53,643 nucleotides of DNA, from the NCBI GenBank assembly GCA_003599575.1, contig QZKV01000115.1:1-53643 (forward strand), read 5' to 3'. The notes beneath the pieces are model-generated. The model saw only the letters and a list, made by a program, of their open reading frames with translations, ran no database searches and had not been told where the DNA came from. This stretch comes from Desulfobacteraceae bacterium. Lineage in GTDB: Bacteria > Desulfobacterota > Desulfobacteria > Desulfobacterales > Desulfosarcinaceae. This document shows positions 8,298-32,605 of the stretch, piece after piece (position 1 is the stretch's first letter; every line of letters starts with the position of its first letter). The translations under genes and the position numbers were made by a program.

Positions 8298-8414
8298 GAA
8301 AATTGGAGGGACTATACTCTTTGGGATTCGGGGGTGTCAATAGGGAAATAGGTATCCTTGAGGGGTTCAGCTCAGCCTAGCTGGTGTCCATCCAGGAATA
8401 CGCCTTTCTTAAAT

Positions 8415-8537
8415 CGTATTCGTATTCGTAATCGTATTCGTAATCGTATTCGTAATCGTATTCGTAATAGTTGTCGTAATCGCCATCGTTCATCCAAGCT
8501 TCGAATACGATTACGAATACGACAACGATAAGTTGAG
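8415..8537. repeat. Hexamer-repeat element A (CGTNNN tract, then CGANNN tract)
   Basis: From 8415 to 8468 nine 6-bp units alternate CGTATT and CGTAAT (a 12-bp period). The phase continues imperfectly to about 8492. From 8502 units of CGA+NNN follow (CGAATA, CGATTA, CGAATA, CGACAA, CGATAA) and the tract ends GTTGAG. The 21-bp segment 8502-8522 is the exact reverse complement of 8432-8452 and of 8444-8464, so a strong hairpin is possible. The same 21-mer pair brackets the four-helix-bundle gene at 30.5-31.0 kb. Here the arms are only about 35 bp apart and no gene lies between them. Confidence 0.85.
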
Positions 8538-20759: not shown

Positions 20760-21794
20760 TCATTGAATGATCATTGCATCCCCGTAGCTGAAAAACCTGT
20801 ACTTCATCCGGACCGCTTCGGCATAGGCCGCCAGAATCTTTTCGCGGCCGGCGAAAGCCGAAACCAGCATCAAGAGAGTGGATTTGGGCAGATGGAAGTT
20901 GGTGATCATGCCGTCGACCAGCTTGAAGGCGTACCCGGGGTAGATGAACAAATCGCACTGGCCGCTGCCGGCCGCGAGATACCCCTGGTCACCGGTGCAA
21001 TATTCCAAAGTGCGCACGCAGGTGGTCCCGACGGCCAGCACACGCCGGCCTTGTTTTTTGGCACTGTTCACGGTGTCGGCTGTTGCGGGCGGCAGGGAGA
21101 AAAACTCGCTGTGCATGCGATGGTGCCGGATGTCGGTGCTCTCCACGGGCAAAAAGGTGCCATAGCCCACATGCAGAGTCAAATAAACCAGCCGCACCCC
21201 TTTTTGAGCCAGGCGCTCCAGCAAGGGCCGGGTGAAGTGCAGCCCCGCGGTGGGCGCAGCAATGGCGCCCTTTTCAGAGGCGTAAACGGTTTGGTAGGTA
21301 TGCTGATCCGCCGCGGTGTCGTTGCGCCGGATGTACGGCGGCAGGGGGACATGACCGTAGCTCTCCAGTATTTGGTCCAGGTCGGCGCTTTTGTCGAAGG
21401 CCACGCTGCAGGTGCGTTCCTGAAGATTCAGAACACGCGCTTCGACTCCCTCGCCGAAGATGAGCCGGTCGCCGGTGCGGGGTCGTTTGGAGGCTTTAAC
21501 CAGGCAGGTGAACGTCTTTTGCTGCATTCCCCGGGCGTAGTCCAGGATCAGAAGTTCCACCTTGCCGCCGGTCGGCTTGCGGCCGAGCAACCGTCCCGGG
21601 ATGACGCGCGTGTTATTGAGCACCAGCACGTCGCCCGCGTTCAACAGATCGGCCACATCACCAAAACGCCCGTGGGTCGTTTGTCCCGTGGCCCGTTGCA
21701 GGTGCAGCAGGCGCGATTGGTCGCGGATGGGTTGCGGCTGCTGGGCGATCAATGCTTCGGGCAGTTCATAATCGTATTCGTCCAGCTTGAACAA
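20760..21794 (-). CDS. queA: S-adenosylmethionine:tRNA ribosyltransferase-isomerase
   Basis: 344 aa, full length. It transfers the ribosyl part of SAM to the queuosine precursor in tRNA to make epoxyqueuosine. Family marks seen: YDYELPEALIAQQP near the start, VLVLNNTRVIPGRLLG, GAIAAPTAGLHFT, LHVGYGTFLPV, GTTCVRTLEY, and the C-terminal TNFHLPKSTLLMLVSAFAG. The DUF2065 gene starts about 200 bp upstream and ends 9 bp before the queA start, so they are probably one transcript. Confidence 0.96.
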   Translation of the reverse strand: MFKLDEYDYELPEALIAQQPQPIRDQSRLLHLQRATGQTTHGRFGDVADLLNAGDVLVLNNTRVIPGRLLGRKPTGGKVELLILDYARGMQQKTFTCLVKASKRPRTGDRLIFGEGVEARVLNLQERTCSVAFDKSADLDQILESYGHVPLPPYIRRNDTAADQHTYQTVYASEKGAIAAPTAGLHFTRPLLERLAQKGVRLVYLTLHVGYGTFLPVESTDIRHHRMHSEFFSLPPATADTVNSAKKQGRRVLAVGTTCVRTLEYCTGDQGYLAAGSGQCDLFIYPGYAFKLVDGMITNFHLPKSTLLMLVSAFAGREKILAAYAEAVRMKYRFFSYGDAMIIQ

Positions 21795-28260: not shown

Positions 28261-30063
28261 TCACCCGGTCCGCCCAAACGCTTTTTCAAGATCCCGCAGG
28301 GTCCAGCGGATCCAGGTGGGGCGGCCGTGGGGACAATGGGAGGGGTTTTGGCAAGCGTCCAACTGGACCAGCAGGCGACGGATCTGGGCATCCGCCAGGT
28401 GCTGGTTGCCGCGCACCGCGCGGTGGCAGGCCATGACCATGCGGCACTCCTGAATGACCCGCGCAATCCCCGCGCCCAGGCCGATCTCCGCGCTGCGCTC
28501 GGCCAGCTCACGGACCAGCCTTCCGATATCGTGGTCGCTCAGCAGCGAGGGTACCGCCTTGACGGCAAACGTGGTGCCGCCGAAGGCTTCGATTTCCAGC
28601 CCCATCGCGCCCAGGCCGGGAAGAAGGTGTTCCAACATGCGGGCCTCGCTGAAGCTCAGCTCGACCGTTTCAGGGACCAGCAGGTGCTGCGCCTCCGGGC
28701 GCTCGGCGTTTTGGCTCAATTGTTCATACAGGATGCGTTCATGGGCCGCATGCTGGTCGATCAGAATCAGGTCATCCCCATCCTGGCAGAGGATATAGGT
28801 GCCGCGAAACTGGCCCACAACGGTCAGGTCGGCGAATCCGTGGGCGGTCCAAAGGTCTTGCTGGCGGGAGGGGGCAGGGAAAAACGGCCTGCCCGTAAAC
28901 CCGGGCGGTTTCGGCGCAGCGCCGGGTACGCTTTTTTCAATCTGCGCGGCGTCCGGGAAAGTGCCGGCCGCCGGGGCCCGCAGCCCGGCCTGCCCGGTCA
29001 AAGGAACCGGGTTGTAGGCGGGTTGCGCTTCGCGCACGGCTTCGCCGCTGCCCGCCGGAGCCCACAAGCGGCGTTCGGCCCGCGAAAGCGCTTCGGCCGT
29101 AGCCTGTCGGACCAGATCGTGCACGCGGCGCTGATCGGCGAAACGGACCTCGTGCTTGGTGGGGTGCACGTTGACATCCACCTGGTCGCAGGGCATTTGC
29201 AAAAACAGCACGGCCGATGGAAAACGGCCCTTCATGATGAGGCCGTGATATCCTTCGCACAGGGCGTGCTGGATCACGCGGTCCCTGATCCTGCGGCCGT
29301 TCACAAAAACAATCGTGCCGCGCGAGGTGCTGCGCGCCATGCCCGCCGGCGCCAAATAGCCCCTCAGGATCAACTCTCCCCTCTGATCCTGCACCCGGAT
29401 CAAATCATCGGCCGCCAGCGGCCCCATGCTATCGGCCGCACGCTCGATCGGATCGTTGACCTTGGGCCACTGTTTGACCAGCCTGGCATTGTGAAGCAGC
29501 TTGAAATGGACCTGCGGATAGGCCAGGGCCATCCCGCCCACGACATCGGCCACATGGCCCATCTCGGTGGCGGTACTTTTCAGGAATTTACGCCGGGCCG
29601 GAGTGTTAAAAAAAAGCTGGGCCACACGGATCAAAGTGCCTTGGGGCGCGCCGGTTTCGGTCACCTGCACCATTTTGCCCCCTTCGATCTGCACCTGCAC
29701 CCCGGCGGCGGCTTCCCGCTCCCGGGTGATCAGGGTCAGCTTGGAAACGGCCGCAATACTGGGCAGGGCCTCGCCGCGGAATCCCAGAGTGCATATGCCC
29801 GACAGATCGGCATCGCTGTGCAATTTGCTGGTGGCAAATCGCTCCAGTGAAAGCAGGGCATCGTCGCGGCCCATGCCGCTGCCGTTATCGGCGACTTGAA
29901 TCAGGGATCGGCCGCCGTTTTCGATTTCGATGGTGATCCGGCTGCCCTGGGCATCCAGCGCGTTTTCAACCAGCTCCTTGACTACCGAAGCCGGCCGCTC
30001 GACCACTTCTCCGGCGGCGATTTTATTGGCCAGAATGTCCGGGAGTATGCGGATTCGGGGCAT
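28261..30063 (-). CDS. mutL: DNA mismatch repair protein MutL, endonuclease-type
   Basis: 600 aa. The GHKL ATPase N-terminus is complete: IAAGEVVERPASVVKELVENALDA, DNGSGM, TLGFRGEALPSI, GT, and LFFNTPAR. After a Pro/Ala-rich linker (about residues 330-400) the C-terminal domain has the metal-binding endonuclease motif DQHAAHERI, ACHRAVRGNQ and CPHGRP, so it should nick DNA like MutL of bacteria lacking MutH. The gene comes last in an argS-SPOR-gatC-gatA-small ORF series on the minus strand, but about 200 bp of repeat sequence separates it from the small ORF. Confidence 0.96.
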   Translation of the reverse strand: MPRIRILPDILANKIAAGEVVERPASVVKELVENALDAQGSRITIEIENGGRSLIQVADNGSGMGRDDALLSLERFATSKLHSDADLSGICTLGFRGEALPSIAAVSKLTLITREREAAAGVQVQIEGGKMVQVTETGAPQGTLIRVAQLFFNTPARRKFLKSTATEMGHVADVVGGMALAYPQVHFKLLHNARLVKQWPKVNDPIERAADSMGPLAADDLIRVQDQRGELILRGYLAPAGMARSTSRGTIVFVNGRRIRDRVIQHALCEGYHGLIMKGRFPSAVLFLQMPCDQVDVNVHPTKHEVRFADQRRVHDLVRQATAEALSRAERRLWAPAGSGEAVREAQPAYNPVPLTGQAGLRAPAAGTFPDAAQIEKSVPGAAPKPPGFTGRPFFPAPSRQQDLWTAHGFADLTVVGQFRGTYILCQDGDDLILIDQHAAHERILYEQLSQNAERPEAQHLLVPETVELSFSEARMLEHLLPGLGAMGLEIEAFGGTTFAVKAVPSLLSDHDIGRLVRELAERSAEIGLGAGIARVIQECRMVMACHRAVRGNQHLADAQIRRLLVQLDACQNPSHCPHGRPTWIRWTLRDLEKAFGRTG

Positions 30064-30082: not shown

Positions 30083-30197
30083 CCGTAATCGTATTCGTTA
30101 TCGTGTTCGTAATCGACCTTCGTTATAGAATTCCGTTGTTACTTAAACCCCTTTTCGATTACGGTTACGAATACGATTATAAATGCGAACACGAGTA
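30083..30197. repeat. Hexamer-repeat element B (inverted pair)
   Basis: Left arm 30084-30114 runs CGTAAT, CGTATT, CGTTAT, CGTGTT, CGTAAT, CGACCT. Right arm 30156-30197 runs CGATTA, CGGTTA, CGAATA, CGATTA, then TAAATG, CGAACA, CGAGTA. The arms are imperfect inverted copies about 40 bp apart, between mutL and the 62-aa gene. It is a diverged, gene-less copy of the element at 8.4 kb. Confidence 0.75.
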
Positions 30198-30261: not shown

Positions 30262-30450
30262 CTACTTTTTCTGCGATGCGTCGTCTTTCAACAACTTCTC
30301 CAGGGCAGCCGCATCGGCCGGGGTGAGATTGAAGGTCAAACAGGCGCGCTCGATCAGTTGGTAGATCGGGGTGCCCGGGTTGGCCTGGCGTTCCGCGCTG
30401 ATCCATTTGACGGCCCGGCGCAGATTTTCTCCTTCGGGTTGGATATTCAT
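30262..30450 (-). CDS. Small conserved-looking protein, unknown function
   Basis: 62 aa. MNIQPEGENLRRAVKWISAE, then PIYQLIERACLTFNLTPADAAALEKLL and a Lys-rich end. It reads as two or three amphipathic helices, soluble, without cysteines. I recall similar short ORFs beside mutL in related bacteria but cannot name a family. AGGA lies 10 nt before the ATG. It would be co-transcribed with gatA and mutL if the inserted four-helix-bundle gene upstream does not block transcription. Confidence 0.7.
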   Translation of the reverse strand: MNIQPEGENLRRAVKWISAERQANPGTPIYQLIERACLTFNLTPADAAALEKLLKDDASQKK

Positions 30451-30485
30451 GGGCTTTTCATCCTAAAAAGACAGAGGCGTCGCCT

Positions 30486-30953
30486 CTAAGCCTTGGTTGG
30501 TGGGTTGCTCCCGTTCTGCTTTTCGTATTCGTAATCGTATTCGTCACCATGAAGTTCCTTTACCGGCGCCGTCTCCCCATATGTAGGAGCAGCTTCCTTT
30601 ACGTTCTCATTGAATAAACTCAATTTTGTTAACATCGATACGATTCGAATCAAATATTGTTTTGCCTTATTGTTCTCTTCGAGTGTAAGCACATTACCGA
30701 TTTGAAGAACATCTTGAATAGCTGCGCACTCCAACGCAGACCCCCGAGCGATTTCGAAAAAGTGCCGTCGGTCGTTTCGTCCGCTCTTGCCATTGCCCTC
30801 GGCAATGTTAAGGGGGACGGACTGGGATGCACGCAACAGCTGCTCACGGGCATTGCGATGATGACTTTTTAGTCGAGGCACCTGACTGTAAACCCATGCG
30901 ACATATTCAAGTGAGAGCTTGTAAACATCGAGTTGCTCGTGTCCAAAACGCAC
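30486..30953 (-). CDS. Four-helix-bundle protein (23S rRNA intervening-sequence protein family) with repeat-encoded tail
   Basis: 155 aa. The family pattern is clear: LDVYKLSLEYVAWVYSQVP, REQLLRASQSVPLNIAEGNGK, RRHFFEIARGSALECAAI, and a last helix ending near residue 120. Proteins of this fold (S23/IVP type, also Avd of diversity-generating retroelements) form pentamers that bind nucleic acid; the cellular role of stand-alone copies is unknown. The last ~20 residues (DEYDYEYEKQNG) are encoded by hexamer repeat C1 (30523-30543), and the inverted copy C2 (30985-31005) lies just upstream of the start. The gene interrupts the gatA to mutL series, as if inserted. No reverse transcriptase or rRNA is nearby. 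Confidence 0.9.
   Translation of the reverse strand: MRFGHEQLDVYKLSLEYVAWVYSQVPRLKSHHRNAREQLLRASQSVPLNIAEGNGKSGRNDRRHFFEIARGSALECAAIQDVLQIGNVLTLEENNKAKQYLIRIVSMLTKLSLFNENVKEAAPTYGETAPVKELHGDEYDYEYEKQNGSNPPTKA
30522..30546. repeat. Hexamer-repeat arm C1
   Basis: CGTATT, CGTAAT, CGTATT, CGTCAC. The 21 bases 30523-30543 equal 8432-8452 and are the exact reverse complement of 30985-31005. It lies inside the 3' end of the four-helix-bundle gene and encodes its Tyr/Asp/Glu tail. Confidence 0.9.
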
Positions 30954-30978
30954 GCTGCCGTCCTTTGGTTTCTGTTTT

Positions 30979-31008
30979 CGAATACGAATACGATTACGAA
31001 TACGAGTT
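30979..31008. repeat. Hexamer-repeat arm C2, inverted partner of C1
   Basis: CGAATA, CGAATA, CGATTA, CGAATA, CGAGTT. The 21 bases 30985-31005 equal 8502-8522 in the same orientation. It sits between the four-helix-bundle start (30953) and the end of gatA (31015), so C1 and C2 bracket the gene over about 480 bp. Confidence 0.9.
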
Positions 31009-31014
31009 TTACAA

Positions 31015-32481
31015 TCATGGTGCTAACTCGGGTTTCTTTTTATGAAACTCCGTGGCTTGTTCAAAGGCATGCGCCGCCGCCAGCAGGCGTGCTTCCTGGA
31101 AATGACCGGACAGCAGTTGCATCCCGATGGGCAGGCCCGCCTGGGACAAGCCGCAGGGCACGGCGATACCGGGAATGCCCGCCAGGTTGGCCGAAAGCGT
31201 ATAGATGTCGGACAGGTACATGGCCAGCGGATCATCGCCGTGAGCCCCGATGCGCGGCGCCGGAGCGGGCGTCACCGGTGAAGCGATCAGGTCACAGCGC
31301 GCGAAGGCGTTTGAAAAATCGCGCATGATCAGCGTGCGCACTTGAGAGGCCTTGCGGTAGTAGGCATCATAATATCCGGCCGACAAAGCGTAGGTACCCA
31401 GCAGGATGCGCCGTTGCACCTCCGGACCGAACCCCTGCCGGCGGGTATTGCGGTACATTTCCAGCAATTCGCCGGCCGCTTCATCGCGCAGCCCATACCG
31501 TACGCCGTCATAGCGGGCCAGATTGGAGCAGGCTTCGGACGGTGCGATCACATAATAGGCGGCCACGCCGTAGCGGGTGTGCGGCAGATCGATCTCCACT
31601 ATCCGGGCACCCAGGCCTTCCAGCGTATCGATGGCCTTCAATACGGCCGCGCATACATCGGCGTCCAGGCCCTGATTGGCGAAGTAGGCTTTGGGAACGC
31701 CGATCCTGAGCCCACGCACCCCTTGGGACAAGGCGGCGCCGTAATCGGGAACCGCATCCGGCGCGCAGGTGGCATCGGCGCCATCATGGCCCGCAATGGC
31801 TTGTAACACCCAGGCGCAATCGGCCACGGATCTTGCCAAGGGACCGATCTGATCCAGGGAGGAAGCAAAGGCCACCAGGCCGAAGCGCGATACCCGTCCG
31901 TAGGTGGGTTTAAGCCCCACGACCCCGCAGTGGGAAGCCGGCTGGCGGATGGAACCGCCCGTATCCGATCCCAGGGCGGCCAGGCACATGCCGGCCGCGG
32001 CGGCGGCCGCCGAGCCGCCGCTGGACCCTCCGGGGATATGGTCGGTGTTCCATGGATTGCGCGTCGTATGAAAAGCCGAGTGCTCCGTGGTGGAACCCAT
32101 GGCGAACTCGTCCATGTTCAGCTTTCCCAGCAAAACGGCCTTCTGGCTTTTGAGCCGCCGCACCACAAAGGCATCGTAGGGCGGAATGAAGTTTTCCAGG
32201 ATACGCGACCCGCAGGTAGTCCGCACGCCCTGCGTGCAGATCACGTCTTTGAGTGCGATCGGAATGCCGGTCAGGGGCGCCATGTGTCCACGGGCCATGG
32301 CCGCATCGGCGTTGCGGGCGTCGGCCAGCGCCTGGTCCGCGGTGACTGTCAGGAACGCGCGAATGCGCGGTTCGACCGCATCAATACGCTCCAAGACGGC
32401 CCGGGTCAGTTCCAGCGCGGAAATGTCGCGGCGCTTAAGCAGGTCGTGGGCCTGGGCGATGGTTAAGGCATACAAATCCAT
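31015..32481 (-). CDS. gatA: Asp-tRNA(Asn)/Glu-tRNA(Gln) amidotransferase subunit A
   Basis: 488 aa amidase-signature enzyme. The catalytic triad Lys-cisSer-Ser is present: lysine in [12 protein letters not shown] (near residue 75), cis-Ser and Ser in [15 protein letters not shown] (near 150-155), and [16 protein letters not shown]. It releases ammonia from glutamine for GatB. The start at 32481 (MDLYALT) has GGAG 6 nt upstream; an ATG four codons earlier has none. gatC lies 124 bp upstream. gatB is 9 kb away, so the GatCAB genes are split. Confidence 0.96.
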
Positions 32482-32605
32482 GTGGGGCTCCACAGGTAAA
32501 CGACGGTTTCATAAGAAGTCGATCGAAACAGACTCTTAAGAGCCATCAGGGAATGCTGAATTCGTAAAAAGTCCATTTTTCATCATTTTCACCATAACGA
32601 AACCT

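Follow-up and report, generated by a model that had tools for sequence, protein, structure and literature searches.

Results

A four-helix-bundle gene lies between inverted hexamer arrays in the gatA operon

The window, by which we mean the whole stretch of 53,643 nucleotides that was analysed, contains on its minus strand a host operon with gatA (31015-32493, TIGR00132), a small ORF (30262-30450) that stands beside gatA in relatives, and mutL (28261-30063, TIGR00585). Comparison with three genomes of the same genus (G008, G009 and G010) delimits an inserted unit of 562 bp (30453-31014, minus strand) upstream of the small ORF, between two copies of CCATGA. The left copy (31015-31020, minus strand) holds the gatA stop codon and the right copy (30447-30452, minus strand) holds the start codon of the small ORF; both are candidate target-site duplications, and G008-G010 have a single ATGA at which stop and start overlap or abut. 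Within the unit, an ORF of 155 amino acids with a GTG start (30486-30953, minus strand), belonging to the S23/IVP four-helix-bundle family (PF05635, TIGR02436), is preceded by a 5' arm consisting of the hexamer array TCGTATTCGTAATCGTATTCGTATTCGA (30978-31005, minus strand) and overlaps a 3' arm of the same kind (30523-30544, plus strand). By eye, the 3' end of the unit has a terminator-like hairpin AGAGGCGACGCCTCT followed by GTCTTTTT (30465-30487, minus strand).

In an earlier sequence-only reading, the gene had been located after gatA and before a small ORF that leads on to mutL, bracketed by 21-base inverted arms, one of which encodes its Tyr/Asp/Glu tail, and each of these points was borne out. 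The bases at 30523-30543 are the exact reverse complement of 30985-31005, with the exact match extending to 22 nt, the right arm encodes YDYEYE, and the profile matches of gatA and mutL confirmed the neighbours. The predicted RNA fold of the unit pairs both arms (z -3.05 against 100 shuffles), and a search for terminal repeats outside the arms of this unit found none above a best score of 5. The exact 21-mer occurs six times in the window, at 8420, 8432, 8444 and 30523 on the plus strand and at 8502 and 30985 on the minus strand, and CGTAATCGTATTCG with up to two mismatches occurs 22 times versus 0.17 expected from shuffles, an enrichment of about 130 times. A match with one mismatch at 21765-21780 was rejected as an array, as by its motif it looks like the coding start of a queA-like gene. 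A further inverted pair of these hexamers, with no gene inside it, stands in the same operon in the interval from the small ORF to mutL (about 30084-30189, no strand assigned), which the sequence-only reading had not listed.

The protein is a maintained member of the S23/IVP family

The ORF matched PF05635 with an E-value of 8.4e-21 (74.6 bits, cut-off 33.8) and TIGR02436, 'four helix bundle protein', with an E-value of 5.4e-19 (68.4 bits, cut-off 24). Its AF2 model had block means of 93-99 over residues 1-110 and a tail without high confidence. The nearest solved folds in Foldseek were 2gsc and 2rld, followed by Avd (4dwl; TM-score by target length 0.80-0.85, E-value 0.04 at best), and the only solved structures found by sequence were 2gsc and 2rld. 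The structure 2gsc is XCC0516 of X. campestris, presumably, from its tag, of the same strain as one of the Xanthomonas genomes in the repeat study discussed below. A title cited in PMC10053308 describes Xcc0516 as a pentamer of four-helix bundles. Among the gene copies compared, pN/pS was 0.09-0.30 in 16 pairs and dN/dS was 0.03-0.28 in the 12 pairs for which it was computable. Such low ratios indicate that the protein is maintained.

Inverted tandem-repeat arms accompany the gene family across phyla

We collected 84 loci of the same order by protein match only, from the top of the ranking, mostly full length and with the window genome included. Tandem arrays were found within 250 bp of the gene upstream in 41 of 83 loci and downstream in 50 of 84, while single 250-bp bins 2-6 kb away had arrays in 0 to 8 of 43 to 50. 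With a score of at least 18 as the threshold for inverted arms, 63 of the 84 loci passed; among 420 mismatched pairs 10 did so, and among 259 distal pairs 3. Of 351 control ORFs at these loci, 11 passed, at least two of them being family members missed by the mask; the rates were 5/113 for controls with at least 80 nt of intergenic DNA on both sides and 6/146 for those shorter than 600 nt. In the window genome itself, two of four copies passed (L003, 22; L004, 25.5), and the other two fell below the threshold (L001, 17.5; L002, 8, with direct 9-bp arrays instead).

A second set was obtained with five proteins as queries in named genomes. Among the best 80 of at least 574 confirmed relatives, from many phyla and one archaeon, 53 of 79 loci had inverted arms (one locus lay too near a contig end), versus 17 of 395 mismatched and 2 of 219 distal pairs. 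Here 18 of 343 control ORFs passed (9 of 96 for those of 500 nt or less). Overall, about 1-5% of controls had inverted arms. Among the best 12 of these 18, six were shorter than 430 nt, and they turned out to be five TIGR02436 genes and one GxxExxY gene; two longer ORFs that were scanned were neither. Thus, the short arm-bearing ORFs found blind were mostly members of this very family.

The arms are degenerate tandem repeats with units of 6-9 bp, mostly 7 bp, and the unit sequence differs from locus to locus. Clear arrays on either side of the gene were present at 77 loci, and in 71 of these the periods of the two arms agreed (the permuted mean was 42.8 and the maximum 55), with 7/7 in 54, 8/8 in 12, 9/9 in 4 and 6/6 in 1. 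Direct alignment outscored inverted alignment in 12 of 84 same-order loci, inverted being better in 72 of 84, and in 13 of 79 cross-phylum loci. A test for mirrored order of the repeat variants between arms (51 of 100 loci below 5%) was set aside as biased, because the arms had been chosen as best-aligned segments. On plasmids, a tblastn search returned 30 records, of which 24 have cyanobacterial names, and all eight cyanobacterial plasmid copies examined had heptamer arrays, with inverted scores of 21-33.5; in one (L259) the direct score of 75 exceeded the inverted score. The repeats on Nostoc-type plasmids go by the name of STRRs. In L256 and L259 the gene lies between cas6 and cas4 in type I-D CRISPR operons of two cyanobacterial plasmids, with different arms.

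The gatA site lacks the gene in six of eleven genomes of the genus

The sequence-only reading had proposed that the gatA-mutL interval be compared in close relatives for an empty site. Among 11 genomes of the genus that hold gatA, including the window genome, the four-helix-bundle gene lies between gatA and the small ORF in three (the window genome, G001 and G007) and is absent from this site in six; in the other two (G004 and G006) the small ORF was not found within the stretch compared. The empty site was indeed found: in G008, G009 and G010, gatA and the small ORF overlap or directly adjoin each other (in G010 by eye, just before the contig end), and the gap between the two matches is 21 bp in G003 and 95 bp in G005. 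In G002 about 1 kb separates gatA from the small ORF, with a 9-bp array and no four-helix-bundle gene; by eye, this stretch (L103 2950-3960) presumably encodes a PIN/AbrB toxin-antitoxin pair. A 9-bp array also follows gatA in G004.

At the filled site, the junction motif ATGA flanks the insertion on both sides, within CCATGA in the window and within ATGACC in the case of G001. The duplicated ATGA fits a target-site duplication, and selection for both codons could also produce it; the candidate duplication in the window is only 6 bp long and coincides with the stop and start codons that are needed. The gene at this site is open in G007 and has an in-frame TGA in G001. The units of the arms are TCGTAT/TCGTAA on both sides in the window and of the TCGTAC type on both sides in G001 and G007, and one arm differs by 18 bp, or three hexamers, between G001 and G007. 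The two arms of the window pair with a score of 22 and those of G001 with a score of 23, and the cross-species pairs score 13 and 14. As far as the compared sequences go, both arms at the gatA site have changed together between species.

The gene and its arms move as one unit in a relative

In the genome G045, which has 11 matches to the gene family, two loci (L033 and L065a) share a stretch of 545 bp at 95% identity, beyond which the 1.5 kb on either side shows no similarity, and a third (L067a) is 77% identical to this unit. A search with the 545-bp unit returned 56 matches. The ends, GGATCATCTCCCGATTAG at the 5' side and ...GGAGAAGAACC, form imperfect terminal repeats by eye. Exact 8-bp duplications flank five of nine inspected two-ended copies (L065a, C35a, C76, C133 and C85), with the junction shifted by one or two bases in some of them; the duplication is 7/8 in L033 and not evident in L067a, C112 and C5. 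Three copies (C133, C85 and C76) are short deletion derivatives without the gene. In G052, a query with the L061a unit returned 63 matches, mostly to the arms, and among them, at C94, is a 125-bp hairpin that lacks the gene and has the same ends. Judged from its dispersed copies, the gene and arms in G045 move as one unit. No transposase was identified for the element.

The gene-less copies at 8.4 kb belong to a separate MITE-like family

The sequence-only reading had also noted the 21-mer and its inverse at 8.4-8.5 kb without a gene, which is the case (8420, 8432 and 8444 on the plus strand, 8502 on the minus strand), and had taken these copies for relics of the gene element. This second part did not hold: the copies belong to a MITE-like family with ends GTGTCCATCCA of its own. 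The one in the window (8384-8529, no strand assigned) is an eroded copy outside the unit, with hexamer arms, one such end and no gene. Two complete copies in the window genome, of 183 bp (L016, C140:8030-8212) and 192 bp (L022, C146:1102-1293), have GTGTCCATCCA ends, hexamer arms and 6-bp duplications, GAACTA and TCGTTA. With at most one mismatch, TAGTGTCCATCCA had 36 hits in contrast to none for the reversed control, and no four-helix-bundle gene was seen inside the copies read, a subset of these 36 places. Three contigs of the assembly (C13, C75 and C83) terminate inside this family, and on C83 a further degenerate hexamer array, CCGATG/CCGACC, adjoins a MITE end (L015 195-245).

Nor is the 21-mer itself tied to the gene family. 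The other three gene copies of the window genome have flanking arrays of other sequence, and the 16-mer core of the 21-mer was absent from all other 59 genomes searched. On the loci compared, what is tied to the gene family is the architecture, not the 21-mer sequence.

Operon setting, RNA signal and candidate partners

From 164 loci, 137 could be scored for orientation (in 8 a neighbour was too far and in 19 there was none). With simple ORF calling, both neighbours were co-directional with the gene in 106 of 137 loci versus 111 of 186 small control ORFs. A second long-kept site, with the same gene pair in five genomes, is flanked by genes that we take to be queA and tgt. On the sense strand, G-U and A-C mismatches numbered 209 versus 217 in 122 loci, two identical loci having been dropped. 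Because there is no G-U excess, these loci give no sign of stems selected as RNA.

Gene-less arrays were scarcely commoner where the gene is abundant, with counts of 29 in 672 kb versus 36 in 704 kb (7 versus 16 for 7- and 8-bp arrays), after exclusion of two stretches of G011 (L201 and L202; G+C 0.00, taken as masked N); a smaller first sample gave 7 in 273 kb versus 11 in 305 kb. Arrays without the gene occur near the same gatA end in G002 and G004 and also in the gene-free genome G005.

No PF00078 reverse transcriptase was found in the window genome, or in 19 of the 43 gene-bearing genomes of the 60-genome set, some of them incomplete; these 19 include G045 and G022, which has 12 matches to the gene family. 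The GxxExxY nuclease (PF13366) was considered as a required partner and rejected, since the window genome holds only fragments of it. Counting longer matches only, GxxExxY lies within 5 kb of a four-helix-bundle match in 12 of 57 cases and within 15 kb in 22 of 57, with clusters at L363-L386, G023:C1:1.91-1.95 Mb and G029:C1:1.376-1.397 Mb. Inverted flanks also surround 9 of the 24 GxxExxY genes tested, and in several of these the units are of 8-9 bp and resemble CGCAGAGA.

Discussion

We propose, with a probability of roughly 0.6, that the unit in the window is a copy of a widespread small insertion element in which an S23/IVP gene occupies the loop between arms of degenerate short tandem repeats that could pair as a long hairpin. 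The architecture and its cross-phylum link to the gene family, the absence of the gene from the gatA site in other species of the genus, the covariation of the arms and the purifying selection on the protein are direct results of the comparisons. Dispersal of gene and arms as one unit, with gene-less derivatives, was likewise observed in a relative. How the window element itself moved is what we infer from such relatives. Several results weigh against the proposal: only two of the four gene copies in the window genome pass the arm threshold, the window unit shows no terminal repeats outside its arms and has a candidate duplication of just 6 bp over codons that are needed, the stems have no G-U excess, gene-less arrays are scarcely commoner where the gene is abundant, arrays stand without the gene near the gatA end in two genomes and in the gene-free G005, direct alignment was better at 12 of 84 and 13 of 79 loci, and no transposase was identified. 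The proposal that gene plus inverted arms form a mobile unit thus stands for the most part, with insertion at the gatA site (gene present in 3/11, absent in 6/11) and the dispersed 545-bp unit in its favour; the part that fell is the one concerning relics at 8.4 kb.

Movement would be at the DNA level. In at least one genome, G045, terminal repeats and 8-bp duplications are present, and these suggest a transposase acting in trans. A hairpin that can fold, or that can be processed in the way that RNase III cuts the 23S rRNA intervening sequence, would explain why insertion directly after a stop codon and co-directionally within an operon is tolerated. The protein, going by its family and fold, may form a pentamer like its relative Xcc0516 and bind its own hairpin. 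Slippage, together with one arm serving as template for the other in a hairpin of DNA, probably maintains the likeness of the arms.

It is also conceivable, at odds that we consider low, that the arrays came first: slippage and hairpin copying would give rise to inverted short-repeat arrays at the junctions of operon genes, and the gene would be a repeatedly acquired cargo. The 9-bp arrays that follow gatA without the gene in G002 and G004, the hexamer arms of the unrelated MITE in the window genome, the inverted flanks of 9 of 24 GxxExxY genes and the direct arrays around L002 all agree with such an origin. However, arrays are rare genome-wide, with 65 in the 1,376 kb sampled, yet stand beside most copies of the gene; entry of a gene into a single array predicts direct arms, whereas inverted alignment was better in 72 of 84 loci; and the dispersed copies have both gene and arms in common. 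Less probable still is an ordinary resident gene with a cellular function, whose arms merely regulate the operon transcript. Purifying selection and the site kept in five genomes would suit such a gene, but the gatA site lacks it in 6 of 11 genomes, the gene occupies several unrelated sites per genome, copies 95% identical are dispersed, and the arms have no G-U excess. An Avd-like retroelement, in which a reverse transcriptase partner copies the element or its repeats, is very improbable despite the fold shared with Avd of diversity-generating retroelements (treated in part of PMC10053308), given that PF00078 is missing from the window genome and from 19 of 43 gene-bearing genomes.

A broader reading can also be put forward, which is speculative and well short of even odds: the S23/IVP pentamer would recognise, and help to build or spread, 6-9-bp repeat arms in a pan-bacterial class of selfish elements, with the 23S rRNA intervening sequence as its rRNA-resident member and gene-less arms as its non-autonomous progeny. 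If true, this class would account for the cyanobacterial STRRs, the heptamer pairs of Xanthomonas and the overrepresentation of heptanucleotide repeats among bacteria in general. The portion of PMC4990558 used here calls it unclear where 23S rRNA intervening sequences and their S23 protein come from and what they do, and parts of PMC4679880 and PMC4692102 record that heptanucleotide repeats abound in bacteria, without an accepted cause. A link between gene and repeats would join both questions: the likely ligand of the protein, from its family and fold, would be the hairpin of its own repeats, and a single class of elements would have left some of the bacterial repeats that lack an explanation. 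Our results suggest that a very common kind of small mobile element gave rise to some short repeats that bacterial genomes have long been known to contain. Among the open-licence PMC titles and abstracts listed by our searches none states a link between this gene family and repeats, which may nevertheless be in print; the nearest is the report of heptamers in the Coxiella intervening sequence.

Several known systems resemble the element. The STRRs of cyanobacteria and the repeats of Xanthomonas are intergenic heptamer arrays, as are found around this gene family; the sections of PMC4692102 drawn on here report 70 and 75 convergent inverted pairs of GGGAATC repeats in two Xanthomonas genomes and only a few inverted pairs in Nostoc. 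Those sections do not tie the repeats to this gene, and the terms 'S23', 'four-helix' and 'intervening' do not occur in the paper. The solved family member XCC0516 (2gsc) comes from X. campestris. MITEs are short, bear terminal repeats, are flanked by target duplications and are moved in trans, and the G045 element has terminal repeats and target duplications too; unlike MITEs, it carries a conserved gene, and no terminal repeats were found outside the arms of the window unit. Avd of diversity-generating retroelements has the four-helix-bundle fold in common (4dwl), but no PF00078 reverse transcriptase was found in the window genome.

The closest parallel is the 23S rRNA intervening sequence of Coxiella, in which an S23 ORF lies in the loop of an inverted-repeat stem with tandem heptamers that vary in number between strains (PMC4990558, in part). 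It shares with the window unit the protein family, an ORF in an inverted-repeat stem loop and a similar size (428 nt versus 562 bp). It differs in that the window unit is inserted in a protein-gene operon, between gatA and the small ORF, rather than in a 23S rRNA helix, and has arms of 6-bp tandem repeats. The protein is under purifying selection in the pairs tested here, whereas the Coxiella authors, in the same part of PMC4990558, judge theirs to be expendable. In its overall layout, the intervening sequence of 23S rRNA resembles a version of this design that resides in rRNA.
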